From positions 620,001 to 684,000 of the forward strand of contig NZ_CP011070.1 of NCBI RefSeq assembly GCF_000956175.1: DNA of 64,000 nt. The letters are read 5' to 3'. A program made the position numbers and the translations under genes. Under the pieces are notes generated by a model. It was not told the DNA's origin, searched no databases, and worked only from the letters and a program-made list of their open reading frames with translations. This stretch comes from Nitrosopumilus adriaticus. GTDB taxonomy: Archaea; Thermoproteota; Nitrososphaeria; Nitrososphaerales; Nitrosopumilaceae. This document shows, piece after piece, positions 34,834-53,256 of the stretch (positions within the stretch are counted from its first letter, which is position 1; the number at the start of each line of letters is the position of its first letter).

Positions 34834-35211
34834 TTATTTTGTTCTTAATACTTTGTTGAATACTAATCCGACATTTCCTCTCTCAAATGGTTTTATTATG
34901 TAATCTCTAGCACCTGATTTCATTGCATCTTGAACAATGTGTTTTTGTTCAACAGATGTCACCATTATCACACGTGCATTTGGATTTACTTTCATAATTC
35001 CTTTTAATGCTTGAATTCCATCAGCTTTTGGCATGTTAACATCCATTGTAACTAAATCTGGTTTATGATTGATAAATTGGCGAACAGCTTCGACCCCATC
35101 TGGTGCTTCTACAATATCTGTTGCAAGTCCATTTGATTTTAAAATATCTTTTAAAACAGTTCTCATAAATGAAGCATCATCTGCAATTAAGACTTTAATT
35201 CCATTTCCCAA
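34834..35211 (-). CDS. cheY: Chemotaxis response regulator CheY
   Basis: A 125-residue single receiver: IKVLIADDASFMRTVLKDIL, phospho-acceptor in DLVTMDVNMPKADG near residue 56, MVTSVEQ near 86 and Lys in YIIKPFERG near 108. It closes the minus-strand chemotaxis run after cheR and should carry the CheA signal to the archaellum switch. No CheF-like adaptor gene was recognised in the window. The sequence upstream has a half operator (TAAACAG on the minus strand) beside a TATA-like GTATAATG at about 35245. Confidence 0.92.
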   Translation of the reverse strand: MGNGIKVLIADDASFMRTVLKDILKSNGLATDIVEAPDGVEAVRQFINHKPDLVTMDVNMPKADGIQALKGIMKVNPNARVIMVTSVEQKHIVQDAMKSGARDYIIKPFERGNVGLVFNKVLRTK

Positions 35212-35365: not shown

Positions 35366-36205
35366 TTAATTTATTGAGTGAGGTATTTTTTGATAAATTC
35401 TTTCTTTGGGATCTAGTATTTCGAAGAATTCCTTTCCCTTAGTTCCAATCATTGATTCATCTTGTCCAAGAACTAAAATCCCTCCATCCATTAATGATTC
35501 TGAAAACTTTTTGTAAATACATTCTTGAGAGTTTTTATCATAGTATATCAAAACATTTCTACAGAAAATAATATCAAACATTTGTCCTGTAGTTTTCATC
35601 AAATCCATCTCCTCATATTGAATTTTGTTTCTGATGTTAAGTTTAACTTGGTAGTATTCCTCTGAAATTTTTTCAAAATATCTATTAATTTTGAGATTAC
35701 TCACATTCACTAAATTTGCATTTCGATATACAGCTTTTTCTGCACGAATTAATGCATGGTTGTTTATATCGTTAGCATAAATTCTATAATCTTTCCCAGT
35801 TCCTTTCAACAATTCATGTAGCATTATGGAAATACTATGTGGCTCTTCACCTGAAGCACTGCCACAACTCCAAACTTTAATTCTAGAGAACTTTGATTTT
35901 TCAATTAACTTGGGGATGGTCTCCTTTTCTAATTTCTCCCAGACTTGAGGATCTCTAAAAAATTTTGTTACATTTATTGAAAATGATGAATATAGGGATT
36001 CTGCCTCATTACAATTACTTGATACTAATTCGAAATATTCTTTTAATTCAGATATATTTAGTATTCTCATTCTGTATTGTATTCGTCTTTCAAGAAAAAC
36101 AGGTTTAAACTCTTGAATACTTTTACCTGTTTTTTTCTTAATCTCTGATATGATCTTTTCAATATAGTGACTTGTTTTGGATTCTATCAAGTTAATTTTC
36201 TCCAA
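35366..36205 (-). CDS. cheR: Chemoreceptor methyltransferase CheR
   Basis: CheR methylates receptor glutamates with SAM for adaptation. The 279-residue protein has the N-terminal helical domain (KTGKSIQEFKPVFLERRIQY), the SAM-binding loop IKVWSCGSASGEEPHSISIM near residue 110, and FDIIFCRNVLIYYDKN near 210. The start overlaps the cheC-like stop by 14 bp, so they are co-translated. Confidence 0.95.
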   Translation of the reverse strand: MEKINLIESKTSHYIEKIISEIKKKTGKSIQEFKPVFLERRIQYRMRILNISELKEYFELVSSNCNEAESLYSSFSINVTKFFRDPQVWEKLEKETIPKLIEKSKFSRIKVWSCGSASGEEPHSISIMLHELLKGTGKDYRIYANDINNHALIRAEKAVYRNANLVNVSNLKINRYFEKISEEYYQVKLNIRNKIQYEEMDLMKTTGQMFDIIFCRNVLIYYDKNSQECIYKKFSESLMDGGILVLGQDESMIGTKGKEFFEILDPKERIYQKIPHSIN

Positions 36206-36944
36206 TATTTTTTTTCAAAGATTGATTTTTAGAATTGGATTCAACTTCTGTCTTTTTTAAATTAAAATCTCCTATCAGTTCGTCAATAGAATTGTTTTTA
36301 CCGCCTAACAAATTTGTATTTGATGGGTTTTCATATTTTGGAACTTTTAAATTCTGATCTCTAAACGAAATTAGTTTTTTTGCATGTTCGGGATGTTGTA
36401 TGATTATCATGTGAAGTTCAATATCTGTGACAGCGCCTGACAAACTTACATCTGTAACTATTACATCTTTGAGATTGCTATTGACATCGTTTGCTGGTTC
36501 TTTGATTAATTCTTTTAATCTCCCTTCTTTGAATGATGGAGTTGAAAGATCAATACGATACCCCGTATTTTCAGACAATGCATTGAAGAACGAACCTGTT
36601 AAAATATTTGCAACTTCTTGTAATGCTGACATTCCCATTTCATCTAATTTATTGATTTTTGTACCTAGTAGTTTTGATGCAATATTAATCGCATGATTCA
36701 ATTTTATTGTGTAGAGTAATTCAATGTGGAGATCACCTTTACCATTTAATCTTACTGAGCACATTTTTATTTCATCTGATGAAAATGAAATTTTATTTTT
36801 AGAGTTATCGTTATTATATTGGATTGAAATCTTATGATTGATTGACTCGTTAAGAAGTGTGGATAGTGCACTGCATGTTTTATTTGTAATATATTCTTCT
36901 ATAGTTCCTACCAATGTTTGAATTTCATTATTTTTTAATTTCAT
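36192..36944 (-). CDS. cheC: CheC-like phosphatase family protein
   Basis: This 250-residue protein of the CheC/CheX/FliY family would dephosphorylate CheY-P. The signature MGMSALQEVANILTGSFFNA near residue 102 has the E-x2-N active-site pattern. A second phosphatase helix normally expected near residue 200 is not evident, so it may have one active site. The C-terminal 50 residues are Asn/Lys-rich and unlike CheC. It lies between cheA and cheR, where cheC or cheD is common in archaea. Confidence 0.82.
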   Translation of the reverse strand: MKLKNNEIQTLVGTIEEYITNKTCSALSTLLNESINHKISIQYNNDNSKNKISFSSDEIKMCSVRLNGKGDLHIELLYTIKLNHAINIASKLLGTKINKLDEMGMSALQEVANILTGSFFNALSENTGYRIDLSTPSFKEGRLKELIKEPANDVNSNLKDVIVTDVSLSGAVTDIELHMIIIQHPEHAKKLISFRDQNLKVPKYENPSNTNLLGGKNNSIDELIGDFNLKKTEVESNSKNQSLKKNIGEN

Positions 36945-42056: not shown

Positions 42057-43541
42057 TTATATTCCTGGGACTGGTGCTGTAAAGATTATACTATCTAAAA
42101 AGTCTGCCATGAATTCATTTATTGCAAACATTGAGATTCCTCCAACTACAAGTAATATGCCAATATGGAAAAAGACTGTTTTGTATAGTCCTCCTTGAAT
42201 AATCTTTATTGCAAAACCACTAATTATTGATGTCATAATTAGCAAAACAGGCATAAGCATGCTCATGAGGACTGGATCAATTGGACTTAGCTCAAATGCG
42301 GCATTTGAAAGATCTCCTTCTGATAAATCATTGAATAATTCTGTAAGCTTATTCATTAATCCAAAGATTGATAGAGATAATACATGTAAAATTACTACAA
42401 CTAATTGAAATGTGGATGCATTTTGAGCTCTTTTCCCTCTTAGTTCACTAATCTTTTTCGTAATATCTGCAACTACATTTCCTACCAGGTTCATATCTGC
42501 GCCTTTGTATATTGATGTTGAAACAATATCGTTTCCATTTGCGATAATATGGTGTCCAGCTTCAATTGAGAATAATTGGAAACATATGGTTTGGTCTATC
42601 CTATTTTTAATCCTATTTTTTAATCCGTCAATAAATTCTTGAATTGTTCCAAAATTACTCCTCATTACTGCCTGAAGCGCTTGTCCCATAGAGCCTACTG
42701 TGGATAGCAATTGACCAAAATGAAGAATAAATGTTGGATACCATTCTGTGTATGTGGCAATTTTAGATTCTTGTTTTTTTGCAATAATTCCTGGATATAA
42801 CAATGGTATTCCTCCCAATCCTATTGCAAGAATTGGTGGCAACATATTTGTCAATAAAAGAACTGCTGAAACCCCAACTGTACCAAATATTCCTACATAC
42901 ATCTTCATTCTAAATTTTTTCTCAATTGCATCATCTGTATGAGCTAATACGTCTCTTGGAAACATAAAAAACATCATTGCTACAAATACTGCCATTCCTG
43001 CACCCGTCCCCATCATAGAAACTATGAGAATAGATTCTGAATCACCAAATCCCATTAACATACTCATAATTGAATTTGCAGAAATCATAAATGATGCAGT
43101 GGACATTAAAGTGTAAAACATTTCTGAAAATAATTTTTGTGTTTCAAGATTTGCCTCATATTTTATGGCATACGTCTGTAAGGAGTTTTTTAATTCATCT
43201 CTAAAAAATGTCTTCAAATCATCTCCTAATCTTACAACTTGAGATAATTTTACTAAAAGTAACTTCATAGGATCGTCTTTATTGTTTGAAACTTTTCTAC
43301 CCATCATTTCACAAGCAGAAGCTAGTCCATATGACCAACCTACACCTAATCTATAGGTGTCTCGAAATGCCTGGGAATATTTTCCATATTTAGAATCCTT
43401 TCCAGTTTTAAAAAGCTCAACGGCTCCAATCTCTCCCGTTGAAATACAGTATAGTAAACCGATGAAATACACAAAATTTTCATCTACTTTACTACCTGTT
43501 GAAAACATATTTTTTACATCTTTTACTTTGTTGACCATCAT
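42057..43541 (-). CDS. arlJ: Archaellum platform protein ArlJ/FlaJ
   Basis: ArlJ is the polytopic membrane platform on which ArlI acts. The 494-residue protein has the TadC/GspF-like fold with TM segments at about 155-175, 182-200, 225-245, 255-270 and several at the C-terminus (about 390-480). The cytosolic region (KYSQAFRDTYRLGVGWSYGL, then GDDLKTFFRDELK) is typical. It overlaps arlI by 4 bp as ATGA, so it is the last gene of the arlGFHIJ run. Confidence 0.93.
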   Translation of the reverse strand: MMVNKVKDVKNMFSTGSKVDENFVYFIGLLYCISTGEIGAVELFKTGKDSKYGKYSQAFRDTYRLGVGWSYGLASACEMMGRKVSNNKDDPMKLLLVKLSQVVRLGDDLKTFFRDELKNSLQTYAIKYEANLETQKLFSEMFYTLMSTASFMISANSIMSMLMGFGDSESILIVSMMGTGAGMAVFVAMMFFMFPRDVLAHTDDAIEKKFRMKMYVGIFGTVGVSAVLLLTNMLPPILAIGLGGIPLLYPGIIAKKQESKIATYTEWYPTFILHFGQLLSTVGSMGQALQAVMRSNFGTIQEFIDGLKNRIKNRIDQTICFQLFSIEAGHHIIANGNDIVSTSIYKGADMNLVGNVVADITKKISELRGKRAQNASTFQLVVVILHVLSLSIFGLMNKLTELFNDLSEGDLSNAAFELSPIDPVLMSMLMPVLLIMTSIISGFAIKIIQGGLYKTVFFHIGILLVVGGISMFAINEFMADFLDSIIFTAPVPGI

Positions 43542-45208
43542 TGCTCATCAAGCTCCTTTAGATATTCTTCTAATCCAATTTCATTACAATGTGAAATTGC
43601 ATTAAACACATCATAATAATTGAAAATTTTCTTCTCCATCATTTTTTCTAGAATTTTTGATCTTAATTCTAATTCATCATATAATTTTCCTTCATCTTTC
43701 TTTTTCATACCTCTTTTTTCTAAAACTTTTGAAATGAATAAGGCACTACTTCCCTTTCCTTTGAATCTTACAGTATCTGTTCCTGCATCCCAATCAAATA
43801 CAGGAATGAACATAACGTTACCATCATTTGATATTCCTAAAATTTCATTAATTGATAAAACACGACGAACTCTTTTTCCTTCGGGATTGAGAACTGCTCC
43901 TTGAAATAATGCTAGGTTTAGATTTTCCATGTAAGTCTTTGGAATGTTAATTGGATCGTTTGAGAGTCTTTGAATAAGGGGGACCATTCCTGCTGCGTGA
44001 AATGTTGCAATAACTGGGTGACCTGTCTGCATTGCTGCAAATGCTACGTTTCCTTCTGCACCTCTGATTTCTCCTACGAGAATATAGTTTGGTCTCTGTC
44101 TTAATGCTGCTTTTAGTAGATCATCCATTGTTACACTAGAAGCTGCATTCCCTGTGTTTCTTGTTGCTTCTGTAATCCAATTGTTGTGAGGTAAAGTTAA
44201 TTCTGGCGTATCCTCAATTGTTACTACTTTCCAATTTGCAGGAATAAATGCAGTTAATCCCATTAAGGTTGTTGTTTTCCCTGATGCTGTCTCTCCATTT
44301 ACAAAAAGACTCATTCCTGCTTCTAGCATCATCCACAAATAAGCAACTTCAGTAAAATTCATCACACCTGATGTTAGAACTTGAATAATTGATAATGGGG
44401 TACTTGCAAATTTACGTATTGTTGCATTTGTTCCTTTTCTACTGATATCTTTTCCAAACACTATGTTAATTCTGGAACCATCTGGTAATGTTGCATCTAC
44501 AACTGGTTTTGCATGTGATATTGTTTTTCCAAATTGCTCCGATAAACTAATAATCAACTCATCAATTGCATCCACACTAAGAAAAACAGGTACCTTCAAA
44601 GTTCCAAATGCTTTATGAATAATGTACATGTTTCCTGCACCAATAATGGAAATATCTTCAAGGTTAGGATCATTTAGGAATGGATCCAAAAGGCCCGTGC
44701 CTGCACGTTTTTGTAGAAAATGATATTTTAAATCATTCATTTTTTTTGATTCAACTGGAAAATTCTTGACTGTAAAAGGATCTCCTAATTTAGAATAATC
44801 CACAGGTGATGATGATGCTACTAACGTTTTACTGAGATATGTGTCAACCATATTGAATCTCTCTGTGATCTCTACTGGTGGATCTAACCCTCCAGCTTTT
44901 GCAGCAAATACTTTGTCTGCAAATTCCATTAATTCTCTTTCCGGCTCATCAGGTTCAATTATAACATATTCGTTATACCCGTCATCAGAAGTAGTGTGTG
45001 GATTTATGTGGATGAATGTATCTTCTGCTACTGAATAAATTAAATTTGGTTCCTTCAGCTTTTTATGTTCTGCCTTTAATTCTTCTGAGAAAAGAGGTAG
45101 TGGATTCCCTTTGCCTTGGTATGTTTCCAGATAGTTTTTTAGATATGGTTTTTCCTTTATTTTTGCAACAAACTCAGCATCATTAATTTTTGATAAGTCA
45201 AAAACCAT
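43538..45208 (-). CDS. arlI: Archaellum ATPase ArlI/FlaI
   Basis: ArlI is the hexameric secretion-type ATPase that assembles and rotates the archaellum. The 556-residue protein shows Walker A as VNGETASGKTTTLMGL near residue 308, the Asp box VVTIEDTPELTLP near 328, Walker B with NYILVGEIRGAEGNVAFAAM near 373 and the His box GHPVIATFHAAG near 394. The acidic N-terminal domain precedes these. It follows arlH with an 8-bp gap. Confidence 0.96.
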   Translation of the reverse strand: MVFDLSKINDAEFVAKIKEKPYLKNYLETYQGKGNPLPLFSEELKAEHKKLKEPNLIYSVAEDTFIHINPHTTSDDGYNEYVIIEPDEPERELMEFADKVFAAKAGGLDPPVEITERFNMVDTYLSKTLVASSSPVDYSKLGDPFTVKNFPVESKKMNDLKYHFLQKRAGTGLLDPFLNDPNLEDISIIGAGNMYIIHKAFGTLKVPVFLSVDAIDELIISLSEQFGKTISHAKPVVDATLPDGSRINIVFGKDISRKGTNATIRKFASTPLSIIQVLTSGVMNFTEVAYLWMMLEAGMSLFVNGETASGKTTTLMGLTAFIPANWKVVTIEDTPELTLPHNNWITEATRNTGNAASSVTMDDLLKAALRQRPNYILVGEIRGAEGNVAFAAMQTGHPVIATFHAAGMVPLIQRLSNDPINIPKTYMENLNLALFQGAVLNPEGKRVRRVLSINEILGISNDGNVMFIPVFDWDAGTDTVRFKGKGSSALFISKVLEKRGMKKKDEGKLYDELELRSKILEKMMEKKIFNYYDVFNAISHCNEIGLEEYLKELDEQ

Positions 45209-45216
45209 TTTCTCAC

Positions 45217-45918
45217 CTATGCGTTAGCCATTGATACAGGAACAATCTTTATGCCAAAAATCAAATCTACCTCAAATGCAAATCCTGCCTCAGGGGTATC
45301 TGCAGCACCTAATAGTTTTATGATTTTTAGAGTTTTAACTTCTCTATCTCCTACTACTACTGTTCCTAATTTAAGATATACATCTGCAGTTCCAATTACT
45401 GCCGTATTTGTAGCGTCTGAAAAATCTGATGAATGACTTGTAATAATTACTGTTTTACCCTTTGCAACAATTTCCTTACAAAATGAGAGAAAATCTAATA
45501 TTGATTCATTTTTGGAATTATTGACCATCGGTGAAATTGAATCAATAACTACTCCATCCACCTTATCTATTTTTTCTAAAATAAACTGTTTAATTGCAGG
45601 TAAAATTCTCTCAGTGTTTTTCTCAGACCATTTTGCATTTTTGATGTACATTGGAACAAATATCAGTTGACTGCGAACAAAAGGTTTAGAAAAATTAAAT
45701 GTGATTGATTTCATTTTTTGAATATGCTGTTTTACAGTATTCTCAATTACACAAAGTAGGCTTTTTTTTGTTGTTAATAATCCGTTCATGATCTGAGCTG
45801 ATATGGCACTTTTACCTGTGCCATGAGCTCCTTCAATAAACACAAGTGATGGTGATGGAATGCCTCCACCGAACTGTCTGTCGATTTCTTCATTTCCAGT
45901 AGAAATAATATTACGCAT
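45217..45918 (-). CDS. arlH: Archaellum ATP-binding protein ArlH/FlaH
   Basis: ArlH is a KaiC/RecA-like ATP-binding protein that forms a ring in the motor with ArlI. The 233-residue protein has NEEIDRQFGGGIPSPSLVFI then Walker A EGAHGTGKSAIS near residue 30, and DGVVIDSISPM near 124 as Walker B region. It does not have a strict catalytic Glu in an obvious site, as in known ArlH. It is followed by arlI. Confidence 0.92.
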   Translation of the reverse strand: MRNIISTGNEEIDRQFGGGIPSPSLVFIEGAHGTGKSAISAQIMNGLLTTKKSLLCVIENTVKQHIQKMKSITFNFSKPFVRSQLIFVPMYIKNAKWSEKNTERILPAIKQFILEKIDKVDGVVIDSISPMVNNSKNESILDFLSFCKEIVAKGKTVIITSHSSDFSDATNTAVIGTADVYLKLGTVVVGDREVKTLKIIKLLGAADTPEAGFAFEVDLIFGIKIVPVSMANA

Positions 45919-45996
45919 AAGTACACCTCAAATTGAACACGATCAAACTATGAGAATTTTCTATTAAAGAAAATGTTTGACTTTTTTGAACAGAAC

Positions 45997-46500
45997 TTAG
46001 ACTAGTTTTGTTTCTTTTACTACTATCCCGTTATCTGTTGAAATAACTATAATCATTGTGGTGCCACTTTGTAGCAGTCTACTAATTGTACCCTCAATAA
46101 TTATGGATTCTCCTTGATTGATAATTTTAGGATCTATCACATCGTTGCTAAATAGAGTGATACACCATTTTCCTACACCACAAACTTCTGCATATTCTAA
46201 ACTTTCAGTATATGTTGTACCTGCACTATCATAGGTAATGATCATGTCAAATTTATCATATGCCCATAATTTCTCAATACCTGTGTTTGTAATATCTACT
46301 GTAAATGTAGATGCAGGTGCAGCTGTAATTATAGAATCTATTGTAAATGAAGTTTTTAGAATTTTATTTTCCAAATCTGATGTTTCAGTAGATGCATCAG
46401 AAAACAATGCAGCTTGATCTGTAAATCCTCCAAATGTAAAAATCACATATGTAATTCCGAACATGATGATTCCACCACTAATTGCATTACTTAGGCCCAT
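45997..46500 (-). CDS. arlF: Archaellum stator protein ArlF/FlaF
   Basis: The 167-residue protein has one N-terminal TM (AISGGIIMFGITYVIFTFGG) followed by an external beta-sandwich domain with STFTVDITNTGIEKLWAYDK and FDMIITYDSAG, as in ArlF, which binds the S-layer and anchors the motor. Two Cys (VCGVGKWC) near residue 110 could form a disulfide. It follows arlG. Confidence 0.85.
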   Translation of the reverse strand: MGLSNAISGGIIMFGITYVIFTFGGFTDQAALFSDASTETSDLENKILKTSFTIDSIITAAPASTFTVDITNTGIEKLWAYDKFDMIITYDSAGTTYTESLEYAEVCGVGKWCITLFSNDVIDPKIINQGESIIIEGTISRLLQSGTTMIIVISTDNGIVVKETKLV

Positions 46501-46511
46501 TTGAAATCCTC

Positions 46512-46991
46512 TTAAGACACGGAGAATATGTGATCGTTTGACTCTCCATTTGATATTGTGAATTGAATCAAATATGATGTTGAAGTTTGTAATGCAGAAT
46601 CATCTTGTAATTGGATTTGTATGGTTTCCCCTTGATTCCAAACTGAACTAGGATCTTTAGTTCCATTAAAACTCCACTGGGGATTTGAACCTGAAGAATA
46701 TCCTACATAATTTACCGATGTAATCGGCCCGAAATACACATCAACTGAATCTAATTCTCGAATTGGAGTTAATCCTGTATTTTTTATCCAAGCCTTCACT
46801 GAAGTATTATTGATTTTACTTACGTGGATGATTTCAAACTTGCTTAACATTTTATCTTTCTGTGCTTCAGTATTTGCTGTGTAATATCCTTCAAATGTCC
46901 CGACTTTACTTACAACTATTCCTGTGATTAGCCCTGCAACCACTATTGATGCTATAATTAAAATCCCTTCACTAATCATTCCAGATGACAT
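46512..46991 (-). CDS. arlG: Archaellum stator protein ArlG/FlaG
   Basis: This 159-residue protein has a TM (MISEGILIIASIVVAGLITG) and a beta-rich external domain (IIHVSKINNTSVKAWIKNTG, DSVDVYFGPI). Position and form match ArlG, which forms filaments capped by ArlF. Its ATG overlaps the stop of the upstream PVVQE-repeat gene (TAATG), giving translational coupling. Confidence 0.82.
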   Translation of the reverse strand: MSSGMISEGILIIASIVVAGLITGIVVSKVGTFEGYYTANTEAQKDKMLSKFEIIHVSKINNTSVKAWIKNTGLTPIRELDSVDVYFGPITSVNYVGYSSGSNPQWSFNGTKDPSSVWNQGETIQIQLQDDSALQTSTSYLIQFTISNGESNDHIFSVS

Positions 46992-48355
46992 TATTTCACC
47001 TCATTTTCAATAGTTTTTGCCAACATTTTTTCCATATCTGATTTCTCTTCATTTTCATTGATGGGCTCATTTGAGTTATTTTTTTTATCGATAAATTGCT
47101 TTAATTGTTTTTCATCAATTGTAATGTTCAAAGTTTTGCAATGTACTTTTGTTAGCTCAAATACTTCTTCAGGGATAAAATCTCTTGATAACTCGTCTAC
47201 TAATGATATGATATCTTCAGGCAATTCTGCATCTTGCACAACAGGTTCTTGCACAACAGGTTCTTGCACAACAGGTTCTTGCACAACAGGTTCTTGCACA
47301 ACAGGTTCTTGCACAACAGGTTCTTGCACAACAGGTTCTTGCACAACAGGTTCTTGCACAACAGGTTCTTGCACAACAGGTTCTTGCACAACAGGTTCTT
47401 GCACAACAGGTTCTTGCACAACAGGTTCTTGCACAACAGGTTCTTGCACAACAGGTTCTTGTTTTTGTGAATTTGGTTTGATGTTATCTGGAGATTTTTC
47501 TGATTTTTGAACTAATGCATCCACATTAATCGTTTGAATATTTTCTTTAAATGGTGCATCTTCCTTCATAAAGTTGAGTGGATTATTCATATCTGTAGTC
47601 AATAATTTAATGTCTGTCAATGTAGTCTCAAAAGAATTTGAAAGAATTTCAACTTCTTCTTTAACGGTAGTTAGATCCTGTTTGAACTGATCAAAGTCTG
47701 TTTTTAGGGTCTGTATGTCATTTTCAATGGGTTCCATTTTTTCCATAATGATTAATTCTGTATCTGAATTATCTAGTGAAGAATCCGAATAATTATCTCC
47801 TTCATTTGTTTCTGCACCTGCCAGTAAAGCTTCAATTTCTGGATTTCCTCCAATACCTTCTTCAGGTTTATCTCCCTCTTCTGTTTTTGCTAGCATTGCA
47901 TCAATCTCAGAATTTCCATTTTCTTTACCCTCTGCTTCTGTTTTTGCCAGTAAAGCTTCCATTTCGGATGTGCCTGAATTATTTTCTGAACCTGTTCCTG
48001 CTAATAGCGCATCAATCTCAGAATTTCCTGCAATCTCAGAATCTGCATCTTCAATTTGATTTTGAGTTTCGATCTCAGAATTTTTAGTATTTCCTTTCCC
48101 TTTAATAGAAATACTCTTCAATGAAATGTTTTTTAATGAAAAGTTTTTTAAATTAATTTTTTTAATATTTAGACCGACTACAACTACAACTAGTGGTACA
48201 ACTAAAGTAAATAAAACATATTGTTCATCAAAAAGATATTCAGGAAACATTTCATATAATACAAGAAAATACATTGCAAATCCTGAAAAAATAATTAATT
48301 TTAAATTGCTTTCACTAATTTTTATTTTAGAAAAAATAGTTGATGGGAGGAGCAT
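46991..48355 (-). CDS. ArlX/ArlCDE-position motor scaffold with repeats
   Basis: The 454-residue protein lies where crenarchaeal ArlX or euryarchaeal ArlC/D/E are found. It has two TM segments (about 18-33 and 45-62) and a row of five-residue units (INLKN FSLKN ISLKS ISIKG, 67-86). Four copies of an EIDALLA-type motif follow at about 112-119, 130-137, 149-156 and 172-179. Then come a coiled coil (about 208-255), fifteen PVVQE/PVVQD repeats (301-375), a conserved helical domain (SLVDELSRDFIPEEVFELTK) and a last motif DMEKMLAKT at 440-448. The coiled coil and C-terminal domain are of ArlD/E type. It probably forms the cytosolic or membrane motor collar. Transmembrane start plus TAATG coupling to arlG support one transcript. 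Confidence 0.82.
   Translation of the reverse strand: MLLPSTIFSKIKISESNLKLIIFSGFAMYFLVLYEMFPEYLFDEQYVLFTLVVPLVVVVVGLNIKKINLKNFSLKNISLKSISIKGKGNTKNSEIETQNQIEDADSEIAGNSEIDALLAGTGSENNSGTSEMEALLAKTEAEGKENGNSEIDAMLAKTEEGDKPEEGIGGNPEIEALLAGAETNEGDNYSDSSLDNSDTELIIMEKMEPIENDIQTLKTDFDQFKQDLTTVKEEVEILSNSFETTLTDIKLLTTDMNNPLNFMKEDAPFKENIQTINVDALVQKSEKSPDNIKPNSQKQEPVVQEPVVQEPVVQEPVVQEPVVQEPVVQEPVVQEPVVQEPVVQEPVVQEPVVQEPVVQEPVVQEPVVQEPVVQDAELPEDIISLVDELSRDFIPEEVFELTKVHCKTLNITIDEKQLKQFIDKKNNSNEPINENEEKSDMEKMLAKTIENEVK
47231..47460 (+). repeat. 15 x 15-bp perfect tandem repeat
   Basis: Unit TTCTTGCACAACAGG is repeated fifteen times in a row; only the first copy differs, at its first base (A for T). It encodes PVVQE on the minus strand. 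The unit length is a multiple of three, so copy-number change keeps the frame. Confidence 0.97.
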
Positions 48356-48365
48356 AAAAAATCTC

Positions 48366-49070
48366 CTAGCCCAAATCTACTATGGTATTTGTGATTGTTG
48401 GAACTTGTCTTTCCACAGTTAAGGCTGAACCTGTTGGAGTAATTATTTCCACTTTGATTTTGTCTAATGCTTGTGGTCTATCTCCGGATGCATAAGCAAC
48501 TGCTAGAACTGCTGATTCTCCTTGTGAGAGAATATCATTACTTGTACTTTCTTGTGTAAAGTAAATGAATGCACGAGTGTATGTTGGTCCAGGACTTGCT
48601 CCTGTTGGGCTGTTATCAATTTGTCCAAATGTTTCGTCACCTGATGAACCATCAGATACTGCTTGTGCTGTTGCAGAACTGAGACTCTTGAATTCTCCTG
48701 TTAGTGTTCCGACATAAATGTCGCTGTAATCAATTGAATTGCTGACATATCTTACAGAAGTTGTTTTTGCTTCTAGATTAATGTCGTTTCCACCAGATGA
48801 AACCTTGATTGGAAATGCAGTCATATTCAAGTATCCTGTTGAAGAATCACCTTCACCGATGACCTTACCTGCAACTTGCATACTGCTACTTGCTTCTCCC
48901 AAACTGGAAATTATTGATGTCTTTGCTTTCTGTGATGTAGTAAATCCCATGTTAAGTACAACAAATGCTAAGGCTGCAGCTACGATTACAAATGCAATCA
49001 TGACTATTGCAGACTCTACACCGATGACTCCACGATGAGAATGTCGCGTTCCCTTTCGTTGTAATTTCAT
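48366..49070 (-). CDS. arlB: Archaellin 1
   Basis: This is an archaellum filament subunit, 234 residues from ATG at 49070; the frame extends further upstream but the four other archaellins show the true start. Class III signal peptide MKLQRKGTRHSHRG is cut after RG by the prepilin peptidase, then the hydrophobic helix VIGVESAIVMIAFVIVAAAL. The beta-rich C-terminal domain ends VERQVPTITNTIVDLG. It lies 10 bp upstream of the ArlX-like gene and is the last archaellin of the array. It has no Cys pair. Confidence 0.92.
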   Translation of the reverse strand: MKLQRKGTRHSHRGVIGVESAIVMIAFVIVAAALAFVVLNMGFTTSQKAKTSIISSLGEASSSMQVAGKVIGEGDSSTGYLNMTAFPIKVSSGGNDINLEAKTTSVRYVSNSIDYSDIYVGTLTGEFKSLSSATAQAVSDGSSGDETFGQIDNSPTGASPGPTYTRAFIYFTQESTSNDILSQGESAVLAVAYASGDRPQALDKIKVEIITPTGSALTVERQVPTITNTIVDLG

Positions 49071-49093
49071 TGATAGGATTAAGTGGCATGGGG

Positions 49094-49126
49094 GTATATC
49101 ATAGCGTGTGTTTGGCGTGATCAAAC
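49094..49126 (-). promoter_or_regulatory. Archaellin promoter block (archaellin 1)
   Basis: A TATA-like GATATAC (49094-49100) lies about 26 nt before the ATG, preceded by a conserved block with inverted repeat GTGTTTG-N7-CAAACAC. The block is near-identical at 50741-50773 and 51574-51606 and partly kept at 53280-53312. Confidence 0.6.
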
Positions 49127-49164
49127 ACAAGAATTCATTTAAAAATTGATTTTCTTTTGTATGG

Positions 49165-49884
49165 CTATCCTAAATCTAGTACTTCATGTGTGATGCTTGG
49201 GATGTCTCTTTCTACTGTTAAAGTGGCCCCATTTGAAACTATGATTTCAAAATTGATTTTTTCTAACGCATATGGTCTATCATTTGTTGCAAATGCTATG
49301 GCTAAAATGGCATGTTCTCCAACATCTAAAACTTGATTTGAATTCAATCTTTTAGCCCAATATAGAAACGCACTAGTTTCATCTGGCAGTGTACCGTTAA
49401 CCGGATTAGCACCATTAAATGCATCAAAAGCAGCATCTGTTTCTAGTTCTGCTTGTCTGTAAGCCAAAATTGATTGTCTATATGTATCTGCAGTTATTGC
49501 ACCTGTGTAGATATTGTCATACTGAATTGATTCACCAATATATCTAATTGATATAACATCTGGAGAAAAATTTACTGAATTCCCATCTTTTGAAATTTTG
49601 AGAGGTATGTTTGTTGCATTAATCCTTGGAATGCTAAAACACGAAGATTCTGAATCTATACATCCAACTGCGGTAATTGTTCCTGATATTTTCATTGAAC
49701 TGCTTGATTCTTCTAATCCTGCAATAGTAGTTGTTTTTACCATCTGTGATGTAGTAAATCCCATGTTAAGTACAACAAATGCTAAGGCTGCAGCTACGAT
49801 TATAAATGCAATCATGACTATTGCAGACTCTACACCGATAACTCCACGATGAGAATGTCGCGTTCCCTTTTCCTGAAATATCAA
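49165..49884 (-). CDS. arlB: Archaellin 2
   Basis: A 239-residue archaellin starting at TTG 49884 (LIFQEKGTRHSHRG, then VIGVESAIVMIAF). The leader differs from the others (IFQEK for KLQRK), although the following 100 bp are nearly identical in DNA. Two Cys in VGCIDSESSCF could form a disulfide in the surface domain. Its promoter has a TATA at 49908-49916 and a perfect palindrome just upstream. Confidence 0.9.
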   Translation of the reverse strand: MIFQEKGTRHSHRGVIGVESAIVMIAFIIVAAALAFVVLNMGFTTSQMVKTTTIAGLEESSSSMKISGTITAVGCIDSESSCFSIPRINATNIPLKISKDGNSVNFSPDVISIRYIGESIQYDNIYTGAITADTYRQSILAYRQAELETDAAFDAFNGANPVNGTLPDETSAFLYWAKRLNSNQVLDVGEHAILAIAFATNDRPYALEKINFEIIVSNGATLTVERDIPSITHEVLDLG

Positions 49885-49921
49885 TATTTTCTATTGCCTT
49901 CAAAAGAGTATATCATAAAGT

Positions 49922-49938
49922 CTGTATTTTGTAAACAG
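49922..49938. promoter_or_regulatory. Perfect GTCTGT...ACAGAC palindromic operator
   Basis: GTCTGT (49920-49925) and ACAGAC (49935-49940) form a perfect inverted repeat around the core GTATT-N3-TAAAC. It lies 8 bp upstream of the TATA-like box of archaellin 2 (minus strand) and replaces the block used by the other archaellin promoters. Confidence 0.5.
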
Positions 49939-49994
49939 ACAATACAAATTTGTAATGATTGAAAATAAGAAAGATTGGAAACCAGTTTTAGTGG

Positions 49995-50717
49995 TTAACC
50001 CATATCTACTATACTGGTGGTGATTGTTGGAATTTGTCTTTCAACTGATAGTGATGCACCAGTTGCTGGAATTATTTCCACTCTAATTTTGTCTAATGCT
50101 GTGGGTCTCTCAGATGAAGCAAACCCTATTGCTAATGCTGCATGTTCTCCTTGATCCAAAACTTGATTGGTGTTGTATTGAACTGACCAATAGATGAAGG
50201 CTGCGGTTTGTGAAGCAACAGTTCCGTTAATAGGGTTAATGGAATCTCCTGAAAATCCAGTTAATGAATCAGTATTTGCTTCTTCAAATGCTCCTCTCAA
50301 GGTTCTATGTTCTTCAGATGTTATTGGTCCAGAGTAAATGTCATCATACTCTACACTGTTACTGAGATATTTTACAGCTGTTGTAGCTGTTCCTAAATCT
50401 ATTGAATCTCCTCCTGGAGTAAGTCTAAGTGGAAATGCTGTGGCATTAATCTTTGGTGTTGTTGCACAAGTAGTATCTGATGATGATGAAGTACATCCAA
50501 CAGCTGTTACTTTACCTGCAATTTGCATACTGCTACTTGATTCTCCAAGTCCTGCCATAATAGTGGTCTTTGCTTTCTGTGATGTAGTAAATCCCATGTT
50601 AAGTACAACAAATGCTAAGGCTGCAGCTACGATTACAAATGCAATCATGACTATTGCAGACTCTACACCGATAACTCCACGATGAGAATGTCGCGTTCCC
50701 TTTCGTTGTAATTTCAT
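49995..50717 (-). CDS. arlB: Archaellin 3
   Basis: A 240-residue archaellin, ATG at 50717, with signal peptide MKLQRKGTRHSHRG and mature N-terminus VIGVESAIVMIAF. Its surface domain has a Cys pair (VGCTSSSSDTTCA) and a middle part with FEEANTDSLTGFSGD. It is closely related to archaellin 4 next door. Confidence 0.92.
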   Translation of the reverse strand: MKLQRKGTRHSHRGVIGVESAIVMIAFVIVAAALAFVVLNMGFTTSQKAKTTIMAGLGESSSSMQIAGKVTAVGCTSSSSDTTCATTPKINATAFPLRLTPGGDSIDLGTATTAVKYLSNSVEYDDIYSGPITSEEHRTLRGAFEEANTDSLTGFSGDSINPINGTVASQTAAFIYWSVQYNTNQVLDQGEHAALAIGFASSERPTALDKIRVEIIPATGASLSVERQIPTITTSIVDMG

Positions 50718-50740
50718 TGATAGGATTTAGTGTGATATGA

Positions 50741-50773
50741 GTATATCATAGCGTGTGTTTGCTGTGATCAAAC
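50741..50773 (-). promoter_or_regulatory. Archaellin promoter block (archaellin 3)
   Basis: TATA-like box TATGATATAC (50741-50750) 24-33 nt before the ATG, with the upstream inverted repeat GTTTG-N7-CAAAC (50757-50773). Identical to the block at 51574-51606. Confidence 0.6.
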
Positions 50774-50827
50774 AGAATGATGATTGAAAAAATGAAAAAT
50801 AAGAAGATTGGAAACCAGTTTTAGTGG

Positions 50828-51550
50828 TTAACCCAAATCTACTACGCTAGTTGTGATTGTTGGAACTTGTCTTTCGACTGACAATGATGCACCAGTTGCT
50901 GGAATTATCTCAGCTCTGATTTTATCTAGTGCTTGAGGTCTCTCAGCTGCAGCAAATCCTATTGCTAATACTGCATGCTCACCTTGATCCAAGATTGCAT
51001 TGGTATTAGTTTGTACTGACCAGTAAATTATTGCTGCAGTTTGTGAAGCTGTAGTTCCATTTACAGGATTACAAGAATCACATGAAAATCCAGTTAATGA
51101 ATCAGTATTTGCTTCTTCAAATGCCCCTTTCAAGGCTCTGTGTTCTTCAGCAGATATTGGTCCAGAGTAAATGTCATCATACTCTACACTGTTGCTGAGG
51201 TATTTCACTGCGGTTGTGGCCAATTCTAAATTGACTGCATCTCCACCCGTGGTTACCTTGATTGGATATGCTGTAGCATTAATCTTTGGTGTTGTTGCAC
51301 AAGTAGTATCTGATGATGTAGAAGTACATCCAACAGCTGTTACTTTACCTGCAACTTGCATACTGCTACTTGATTCTCCAAGTCCTGATATGATGGTGGT
51401 CTTTGCTTTCTGTGATGTAGTAAATCCCATGTTAAGTACAACAAATGCTAAGGCTGCAGCTACGATTACAAATGCAATCATGACTATTGCAGACTCTACA
51501 CCGATGACTCCACGATGAGAATGTCGCGTTCCCTTTCGTTGTAATTTCAT
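50828..51550 (-). CDS. arlB: Archaellin 4
   Basis: A 240-residue archaellin, ATG at 51550, same leader and helix as archaellin 3. It has the same Cys pair (VGCTSTSSDTTCA) plus an additional pair CDSC near residue 155, which its twin lacks (SGDS there). This suggests an added disulfide or local variation after duplication. Confidence 0.92.
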   Translation of the reverse strand: MKLQRKGTRHSHRGVIGVESAIVMIAFVIVAAALAFVVLNMGFTTSQKAKTTIISGLGESSSSMQVAGKVTAVGCTSTSSDTTCATTPKINATAYPIKVTTGGDAVNLELATTAVKYLSNSVEYDDIYSGPISAEEHRALKGAFEEANTDSLTGFSCDSCNPVNGTTASQTAAIIYWSVQTNTNAILDQGEHAVLAIGFAAAERPQALDKIRAEIIPATGASLSVERQVPTITTSVVDLG

Positions 51551-51573
51551 TGATAGGATTTAGTGTGATATGA

Positions 51574-51606
51574 GTATATCATAGCGTGTGTTTGCTGTGA
51601 TCAAAC
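51574..51606 (-). promoter_or_regulatory. Archaellin promoter block (archaellin 4)
   Basis: Same 33-bp block as at 50741-50773, with TATA-like GATATAC at 51574-51580 and GTTTG-N7-CAAAC at 51590-51606. Confidence 0.6.
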
Positions 51607-51619
51607 ATCTATGAAAAAA

Positions 51620-52486
51620 CTATCCTTGCAGATTTTCTCTAAAAAAATCTAATGAATATCTAACCTCTGTTTCTGTAATCAATCCCTTATCAAACCAACA
51701 CAAAGATATCTGATACCAATTTGGAACATTAACTCCATCCCAAATAAATTCCAAATCTGATAGAGGAATTTGGCATAGTTCAAGTGAACCTGAATCATAA
51801 CTAATGGTATTGCTCTGAATGTTTAATGGAATGTTTGTAGCTTCACTAGGCACGCCATAGACTAACTTGAGAGTATAATCTTGCTCCATTCTCCATATTT
51901 CTTTTGAAATATCTATGGATGAATCAAATGTTGCATCTTGATTAAACATATTTCCTTGTTGGTAAACAAGATTATTTTGATTGTTATATACTAAAATATC
52001 ATATTCTGTATTGGCAAAATCTGAATCGACTAATCCACTAACTTCCAATACCTTGTCTTCTCTAATTTTATATGAAATATCTAATGTAGATTCAATTACA
52101 TTTGGATTGTCTTCAAAAAAGATTTTCCCGGTAAACCATGGGTGAATTTCACAAAAATAATAATATCCTGCAAATCCTGTGTGTTCCAAATTAATTGAAT
52201 ATCCTTTACCTGTACCTAGACTCTCTGAGGAAAAATATTCTCCAGCGTAATCTGGATGTTCAGGTACACCACTTACAATTTTATGTATAGTTGAATCATT
52301 ATTTTGCCAAGTTATTCTGTCTCCTGACTGAATTGGAAGTTCTCTGGGTTGAAACAATTCATTTTTCCCAAAATTATCATAAGGATTAATGAAAATAATC
52401 CATGAATCCTCTGCAAAAACTGTTGAAGTTGTAATTGGGAGCATTAGTAATACCCCTGAAAAAATCACAATTGCTCTTAATGTCAT
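51620..52486 (-). CDS. Secreted cupredoxin-type protein in archaellin array
   Basis: A 288-residue exported protein. MTLRAIVIFSGVLLMLPITT is a signal peptide ending at VFA; the longer frame to 52540 adds a polar leader, so ATG 52486 is preferred. A plastocyanin-like domain spans about 20-115, with GDRITWQNNDSTIHKI (His ligand) and YFCEIHPWFTG (Cys and His), but Phe stands where the axial Met usually is. A second beta domain follows (DISYKIREDKVLEVSGLVDS), and a C-terminal helical part contains DKGLITETEVRYSLDFF. Its place among archaellins suggests a surface-filament link, but an unrelated electron-transfer role is also possible. Confidence 0.82.
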   Translation of the reverse strand: MTLRAIVIFSGVLLMLPITTSTVFAEDSWIIFINPYDNFGKNELFQPRELPIQSGDRITWQNNDSTIHKIVSGVPEHPDYAGEYFSSESLGTGKGYSINLEHTGFAGYYYFCEIHPWFTGKIFFEDNPNVIESTLDISYKIREDKVLEVSGLVDSDFANTEYDILVYNNQNNLVYQQGNMFNQDATFDSSIDISKEIWRMEQDYTLKLVYGVPSEATNIPLNIQSNTISYDSGSLELCQIPLSDLEFIWDGVNVPNWYQISLCWFDKGLITETEVRYSLDFFRENLQG

Positions 52487-52575
52487 CAAATAATCATGAA
52501 AATTTAGTAATTTGTACTGTTGTTTGATCAAAATAAACAAAATAAAAAAGTAAAAAACCTGGCTAATTATTTAGA

Positions 52576-53256
52576 TTAACCAAGATCTACTATCGATGAT
52601 GATATGTTTGGAACTGTACGCTCAATAGACAATGGTGCACCAGTTGGAAGAATTACTTCTGCTCTAATTATGTCTAGTGATTGCGGTCTTTCGCTTTCAG
52701 AAAATGCAATTGCTAGCATTCCGTGTTCACCTTGATCCAAAATGAAGTTATCATTTCTATTTACATTGAAATAGAATACTGCTTTTGTATCAGATGGGCT
52801 TGAAGCATTTACAGGGTTTGATGTTATGTATCCTGCAGTCACTGATGCCTGCATTGCACTTGCTAATGTATCATGCACACCTGATGATATTGCTCCTGCA
52901 TAGATGTTTCCATGTTCCACACTATTACTGAGATAACGAATAGCAGCATTTGAAGGATTAAGGTTAATTGATTGACCTCCGGACACTATCTTTAATGGAA
53001 CAGCTGTGGCATTAAGTTTCCCTGCAGTAATGTGGCCTGAACCAATAATTTTACCTGCAATTTCTAATGCACTACTTGCTTCATCAGCGCTTGAGACTAT
53101 GGCATTTTTTGTTTTTTGCGTAGTTGAGAATCCCATGTTAAGTACAACAAATGCTAAGGCTGCAGCTACGATTACAAATGCAATCATGACTATTGCAGAC
53201 TCTACACCGATGACTCCACGATGAGAATGTCGCGTTCCCTTTCGCTGTAATTTCAT
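52576..53256 (-). CDS. arlB: Archaellin 5 (first of the array)
   Basis: A 226-residue archaellin, ATG at 53256, signal peptide MKLQRKGTRHSHRG, mature VIGVESAIVMIAF. It lacks Cys and is shorter than archaellins 2-4. It is transcribed first from the region shared with the TrmB-type regulator, and is separated from the rest by the cupredoxin gene. Gene end VERTV..SSIVDLG matches its paralogs. Confidence 0.92.
   Translation of the reverse strand: MKLQRKGTRHSHRGVIGVESAIVMIAFVIVAAALAFVVLNMGFSTTQKTKNAIVSSADEASSALEIAGKIIGSGHITAGKLNATAVPLKIVSGGQSINLNPSNAAIRYLSNSVEHGNIYAGAISSGVHDTLASAMQASVTAGYITSNPVNASSPSDTKAVFYFNVNRNDNFILDQGEHGMLAIAFSESERPQSLDIIRAEVILPTGAPLSIERTVPNISSSIVDLG

Follow-up and report, generated by a model that had tools for sequence, protein, structure and literature searches.

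The window, that is the whole stretch of 64,000 nucleotides of Nitrosopumilus adriaticus analysed here, carries on its minus strand an archaellum gene cluster in which an open reading frame, referred to below as X, lies between arlG and a group of archaellin genes (Table 1). This arrangement is shared by related genomes, as arlG was located directly downstream of X in 55 of 56 related loci and X was immediately preceded by an archaellin gene of the same strand in 44 of the 56 (the contig edge falls there in 10, and the archaellin gene is divergent in 2). Beyond arlG, arlF, arlH, arlI and arlJ there are genes for MCP, CheW, CheB, CheA, CheC, CheR and CheY. We named arlI and arlJ from their position and sequence type, and the archaellin genes and some of the chemotaxis genes from their sequence type. 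The cupredoxin-like gene among the archaellin genes (51620-52540) encodes a secreted protein, and a similar gene is likewise present among archaellin genes in several related g1, g11 and g15 genomes. In two other loci, open reading frames of 869 and 795 residues with weak likeness to ArlF are inserted between arlF and arlH (L040:5711-8317 and L057:10626-13010).

Table 1. Features of the archaellum and chemotaxis region, with coordinates in the window.
Feature	Position	Strand	Basis or reading
CheY, proposed ligand of the motifs	34834..35211	-	Pfam Response_reg E 2e-27; PDB CheY matches
CheC (CheY-P phosphatase family) with C-terminal tail	36192..36944	-	Pfam CheC E 3.8e-12
CheC-tail motif NNSIDELIGDF, degenerate here (SIDELI)	36264..36296	-	Sequence
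arlJ, arlI, arlH, arlF, arlG	42057..46991	-	ORFs; families for H, F, G
X, 454 aa, putative membrane-anchored archaellum switch/scaffold protein (ArlCDE/ArlX counterpart)	46991..48355	-	ORF and synteny
Degenerate fifth motif DMEKML, C terminus, residues 440-445	47021..47038	-	Model helix 438-452; 2/6 columns conserved
C-terminal helical domain, residues 378-426, shortened ArlD/E-type	47078..47224	-	Alignment; long form by profile-profile match
Tandem array, 15 QEPVV units	47232..47461	-	Probable variable-length proline-rich linker
Coiled coil (residues 196-254) and conserved NPLNFM	47567..47770	-	Single 59-residue helix in AlphaFold model
Motif 4, EIEALL, residues 173-178	47822..47839	-	Model helix 172-179
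Motif 3, EIDAML, residues 150-155	47891..47908	-	Model helix 149-156
Motif 2, EMEALL, residues 131-136	47948..47965	-	Model helix 131-141
Motif 1, EIDALL, residues 113-118	48002..48019	-	Model helix 112-118
Imperfect 15-bp repeat, basic juxtamembrane stretch after second hydrophobic helix	48101..48166	-	Tandem Repeats Finder, 4.4 copies, 75%
Predicted membrane hairpin made of two hydrophobic helices at the N terminus (residues 15-36 and 44-64)	48164..48313	-	AlphaFold helices, hydrophobic sequence; presumed membrane location
Five archaellin genes and a cupredoxin-like gene among them	48366..53256	-	ORFs, synteny

From its N terminus X consists of two hydrophobic helices, a predicted disordered stretch, a coiled coil, a linker and a C-terminal helical domain. 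Of the 67 columns of the coiled coil together with NPLNFM, 64 are invariant in four species, and NPLNF at the coil end is invariant in 32 X orthologues. The AlphaFold confidence was low for both X models obtained (mean pLDDT 53.3 and 61.9), and a Foldseek search of the PDB with the model of the G230 protein gave no match at E 0.001 or better.

Based on analysis with Tandem Repeats Finder, the array has a period of 15, 15.3 copies, 100% matches and 0% indels, with a score of 460, and the runner-up array in the window scored just 71. On the coding strand all 15 units read CAA GAA CCT GTT GTG, and they make up residues 299-373 of X as repeated QEPVV. The initial annotation, which had described fifteen near-identical in-frame 15-bp repeats, was thus confirmed with 15 perfect units, and chance is excluded by a wide margin for a perfect 15-mer array of 230 bp. 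An open reading frame on the plus strand across the array (47058-47510) was rejected as a gene; it is a mechanical shadow of the array and stays open because 15 is divisible by 3 and the unit is free of stops.

The array was compared among four related genomes, in which 15 (window), 15 (G176), 6 (G137) and 5 (G118) exact QEPVV units were counted, corresponding to 15.3, 16.5, 7.5 and 5.2 copies in Tandem Repeats Finder. Every array is internally identical in all four species and the silent state is fixed per species, being CCT GTT GTG in the window, CCA GTT GTG in G118 and CCT GTG GTA in both G176 and G137. At four-fold degenerate sites in the flanks of X, the window and G118 agree at 63 of 98 and differ at 35 of 98, and the closest pair, G176 and G137, is identical at 115 of 127; this same pair differs in copy number, 15 versus 6 units, in frame. 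Since the arrays are uniform, the silent state is species-specific and the flanks have diverged, the units appear to turn over jointly and to outpace divergence at silent sites. It had been proposed that the array is young or homogenised and that its copy number can change without breaking the frame, and both proposals are borne out between the species; the opposite pattern, a constant number with silent changes between units, was looked for in the four species and is absent. In G024, X (L045) has a run of N where the array is expected.

In more distant relatives this site is occupied by different Pro/Glu-rich arrays, namely APEPTPS/APELTPS (G096), APEQL (G097), EPVHETA (G175) and KPPESTET (G129), and the array of G096 is built of two six-unit blocks and one intermediate unit, the pattern expected from block duplication. 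In the X orthologues of g15, g16, g17 and g2 the linkers are non-repetitive. The coil and the C-terminal Cys-Lys are separated by 87-160 residues in the array clade (9 rows), 114-121 in g15 (11 rows), 123-147 in the g16-like group that includes g17 and g2 (11 rows) and 95 in the single further row, G221. Another long array in the genus was seen in G174 (L032:541-2763), where a protein of 741 residues, TPR-like by eye, has several dozen VVKDD repeats.

As the units are uniform within and different between species, and unrelated arrays occupy the same place, the comparison supports the array as a homogenised, length-variable linker that joins the coiled coil to the C-terminal domain. The position that had been given for an adjustable spacer is therefore correct, and we infer a spacer role from it. 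Perfect in-frame units of variable copy number, as in coding minisatellites, are what was found between species, and the array may also be a coding minisatellite that evolves neutrally within disordered linker sequence, its length and sequence being of little consequence and X working regardless of it. The free replacement of the unit among relatives (APEPTPS, APEQL, EPVHETA and others) and the span of linker lengths within the nine array-clade rows are in line with neutrality. However, the linker is kept at the same place in every lineage, is Pro/Glu/Gln-rich in the array clade, and has a similar length in orthologues that have no array. Because it is retained in all lineages, at similar length also where arrays are lacking, some linker length seems to be needed, and we hold full neutrality to be possible, if somewhat doubtful.

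With respect to the identity of X, a profile search found it in 56 of 400 genomes of the class, with arlJ in 70 of the 400. In families f1-f3, comparison of the two lists placed X in 52 of 60 arlJ-bearing genomes (G139 by a fragment only). Eight arlJ-bearing genomes lack X, and in G001, G210 and G228 at least, arlJ is close to a contig start, so that X may lie off the contig. The raw X search count, 74 of 250 genomes, was not used because many of the matches are other repeat-rich proteins. When the profile was taken from the coil onward, it matched a single protein, encoded upstream of arlH, in 60 of 80 loci across archaea. Aligned by hhalign with 18 of these proteins, X reached a probability of 95.1% and an E-value of 3.1e-8, the alignment covering 101 columns of the C-terminal domain. 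As these 18 templates were chosen by their matches to the X profile, the independent support for homology comes from the operon place and from Pfam: of nine such proteins upstream of arlH, one passes the Arch_fla_DE cut-off of 21 (L185, 26.8 bits), four score below it and four have no match. X itself reached no Pfam or NCBIfam cut-off, FlaC_arch and Arch_fla_DE included; the best score of the X family with these two models was 20.0 bits versus 21, for the short form of G373. The Pfam, NCBIfam and PDB sequence matches of X were set aside, being sub-threshold and mostly in low-complexity or coiled-coil stretches, and for the middle and C-terminal domains of FliM there was no Pfam or NCBIfam match in X.

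Based on the C-terminal homology, the operon place and the Arch_fla_DE match we identify X, by its sequence, as the thaumarchaeal counterpart of ArlCDE/ArlX. The best explanation is that X serves ammonia-oxidising-type archaea as the switch/scaffold of their archaellum and is of ArlCDE type, with a membrane hairpin gained in addition. The homology to ArlCDE is not new, having been in print since 2016, when a census reported that HHpred identified counterparts in Crenarchaeota and Thaumarchaea (PMC4858521); in a review of 2022, what replaces ArlX/ArlCDE in Thaumarchaea is still described as unidentified (PMC8978795). Alternatively, X could be a thaumarchaeal ArlX, a purely structural ring with no part in chemotaxis. 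It does share a membrane anchor and a coiled coil with ArlX, and weak Pfam ArlX matches fall on the coil (best L092, 22.7 bits versus a cut-off of 28.7). Against this, the C-terminal domain matches ArlCDE-type proteins, an EIDALL-type motif is common to X and CheC, and the che genes adjoin the arl genes, which makes a pure ring very improbable. Crenarchaeota, the bearers of ArlX, are described as having no chemotaxis in the same review (PMC8978795).

The stretch of X between the membrane hairpin and the coil contains motifs 1-4, which are identical or close to the bacterial EIDALL, the CheY-P-binding motif of FliM according to passages of PMC9126983; E. coli FliM starts with MGDSILSQAEIDALLNGDSE. 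In the AlphaFold model of the window protein each motif forms a short helix within disorder, at low confidence, and the isolated helices are for this reason weak support. The motif columns are conserved above their surroundings, with 21 of 24 invariant in four species compared to 28 of 85 elsewhere in the disordered stretch (Fisher p 3e-6, with columns and species that are not independent). A relaxed DNA pattern of the motif occurred 4 times in the whole own genome (complete, 1,803,090 bases), each time in X, and its reversed control gave none. In 250 family genomes, the strict pattern had 36 matches and the reversed control 1. Ten of the 36 fall in X and 21 in the tail that ends CheC; the other 5 encode no motif, their frames containing a stop or having one or both leucines replaced by phenylalanine. 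In frame, the strict motif is thus confined, with 31 matches in the 250 related genomes, to X and the CheC tail. Among ArlCDE-type proteins outside the lineage it was found in 0 of 60. Tandem repetition also affects the motifs, with 51-bp motif repeats in G096 and G097, and because the linker and the set of motif copies both grow in this way, a single process may tune dock number and tether length.

CheC dephosphorylates CheY-P, and its tail motif was scored together with that of X in 48 genomes. Both proteins have the motif in 23 genomes and neither has it in 24; X alone has it in 1 (G095) and CheC alone in 0, giving agreement in 47 of 48, in counts that follow genera and are not independent. 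The motifs of X were scored by the core pattern, and the weaker forms of g2 (ELDELI, ELEDII) counted as present; G303 and G304 were scored as motif-less since their ELEALI lies in the C-terminal domain and not in the disordered stretch. The CheC motifs of the window, G118, G137, G176, G024 and G034 are degenerate forms that were judged by eye. G097, which has two X copies, was counted once. The count leaves out G032, G177, G206, G301, G322, G331 and G373, where CheC was not found, and G196 and G227, where the match was taken as a second CheC paralogue. The motif-less lineages are g15, f2 and f3, and within g16 the motif is lacking from both X and CheC in G221. A second, tail-less CheC paralogue lies beside the tailed CheC in G230, G217, G215, G222, G214 and others.

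CheY was present in all 22 genomes examined, and the solved structures closest to the CheY of the window include both an archaeal CheY (6er7) and T. maritima CheY, with similar E-values. Comparison of CheY did not set motif-bearing lineages apart from motif-less ones, in that those with the motif showed no evident change specific to them. The CheF family was over its cut-off in none of the 250 family genomes and in none of 15 X-bearing genomes of other families, and was positive in 3 of 14 control genomes. Weak CheF matches in 4 of the 250 genomes, at E up to 0.01, were all under the cut-off and taken as chance; a CheF that has diverged too far could also escape the Pfam model. CheF of characterised archaea connects CheY-P with ArlCDE, and its contact with CheY-P lies elsewhere than that of FliM (PMC9126983). 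As X and the che genes are present in g15, f2 and f3 and both motif and CheF are absent, another route must exist there. In many g15 loci (L048-L056, L068, L071), where X is without the EIDALL motif, a divergent CheY-like gene faces the end of arlJ in convergent orientation and may be a component of an alternative coupling.

Taken together, we consider it quite probable that X is the switch/scaffold, that the array serves as a tether, that the motifs dock CheY-P, that CheC uses the same dock and that CheF has been replaced. The gene position, the NPLNF coil, the C-terminal homology, the turnover of the array and the restriction of the motif to X and CheC can be read from the sequences; CheY-P docking on the motifs and the tether role of the array are what we propose in addition. 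Each subunit of X would offer CheY-P several docking helices in the form of the motifs, and these would concentrate CheY-P at the motor and stand in for the archaeal adaptor CheF. CheC would carry the same peptide in order to reach CheY-P and dephosphorylate it. The array would be a flexible tether with a length that drifts fast via in-frame gain and loss of units, while repeated turnover would keep the units uniform. Such a design would parallel bacteria, in which FliM has the peptide on the switch and FliY has the peptide plus a CheC-type phosphatase.

Some observations speak against docking: a six-residue motif can converge for another partner, G095 has the motif in X and not in CheC, and the CheC motif of the window is degenerate (SIDELI). 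The EIDALL-type motifs may instead bind another partner shared by X and CheC, such as CheA or ArlH, or join X and CheC directly, and the match to FliM would then be coincidental. The motif is tied to CheY by sequence only, binding to ArlH has been reported for both ArlX and ArlCDE (PMC8978795), and haloarchaeal CheF binds CheC2, CheD and CheY (PMC6718144). On the other hand, the EIDALL core is letter-identical to that of E. coli FliM, and CheD, which is another partner of CheC, is disfavoured as the shared partner, as 7 of 13 motif-bearing genomes lack it whereas CheY is found in 22 of 22. The known substrate of CheC, moreover, is CheY-P. We therefore regard a partner other than CheY as unlikely.

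In its wider form, towards which we lean with less assurance, the docking of CheY-P would mean that the wiring of FliM and FliY was reinvented or borrowed on a non-homologous motor, with direct multivalent docking of CheY-P, the same peptide on CheC, CheF dispensed with, and dock number and tether length evolving by tandem duplication. It addresses the path of CheY-P to the motor in archaea of this kind, where CheF was not found. Should the motif indeed dock CheY, one short peptide would link one signal with two rotary motors that are unrelated, and short-motif wiring would clearly have converged or been transferred. In the array, nature provides one tether in a series of lengths across species. 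FliM in bacteria and CheF in archaea are treated as a dividing line in passages of PMC6718144. Among the titles, abstract beginnings and passages covered, most subscription papers being outside this scope, we found no report of an EIDALL-type motif in an archaellum protein or in the tail of an archaeal CheC.

Among known systems, the euryarchaeal switch complex ArlCDE (FlaC/D/E) has in common with X the place upstream of arlH, the coiled coil and a homologous C-terminal domain. X differs in its membrane hairpin, EIDALL motifs and tandem-repeat linker and in that a CheF partner was not found; ArlCDE is taken to have no membrane anchor, whereas two N-terminal hydrophobic helices are present in both models of X. 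The crenarchaeal ring protein ArlX (FlaX) resembles X in its membrane anchor and coiled coil, but X has an ArlD/E-type C-terminal domain and CheY-type motifs, and two N-terminal hydrophobic helices compared to the one described for ArlX (PMC8978795). The task of the adaptor CheF is the one that we propose for the X motifs, although CheF acts as a protein of its own, contacts CheY-P at another place than FliM, and was not found in these genomes. Coding minisatellites and proline-rich spacers, for which TonB is an example, share the in-frame perfect units and the length variation with X; unlike in coding minisatellites, the array of X sits in an archaellum base protein and the unit itself is swapped between relatives. 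The N-terminal peptide of FliM has the identical EIDALL core, with Gly two positions after it, whereas X has no FliM domain and carries the motif internally and in several copies instead of one N-terminal copy. In bacterial FliY a docking peptide is combined with a CheC-type phosphatase, and parts of this layout are given in passages of PMC9126983. The CheC described here likewise joins the same kind of docking peptide to a CheC-type phosphatase, but has it at the C terminus and without a FliN domain.
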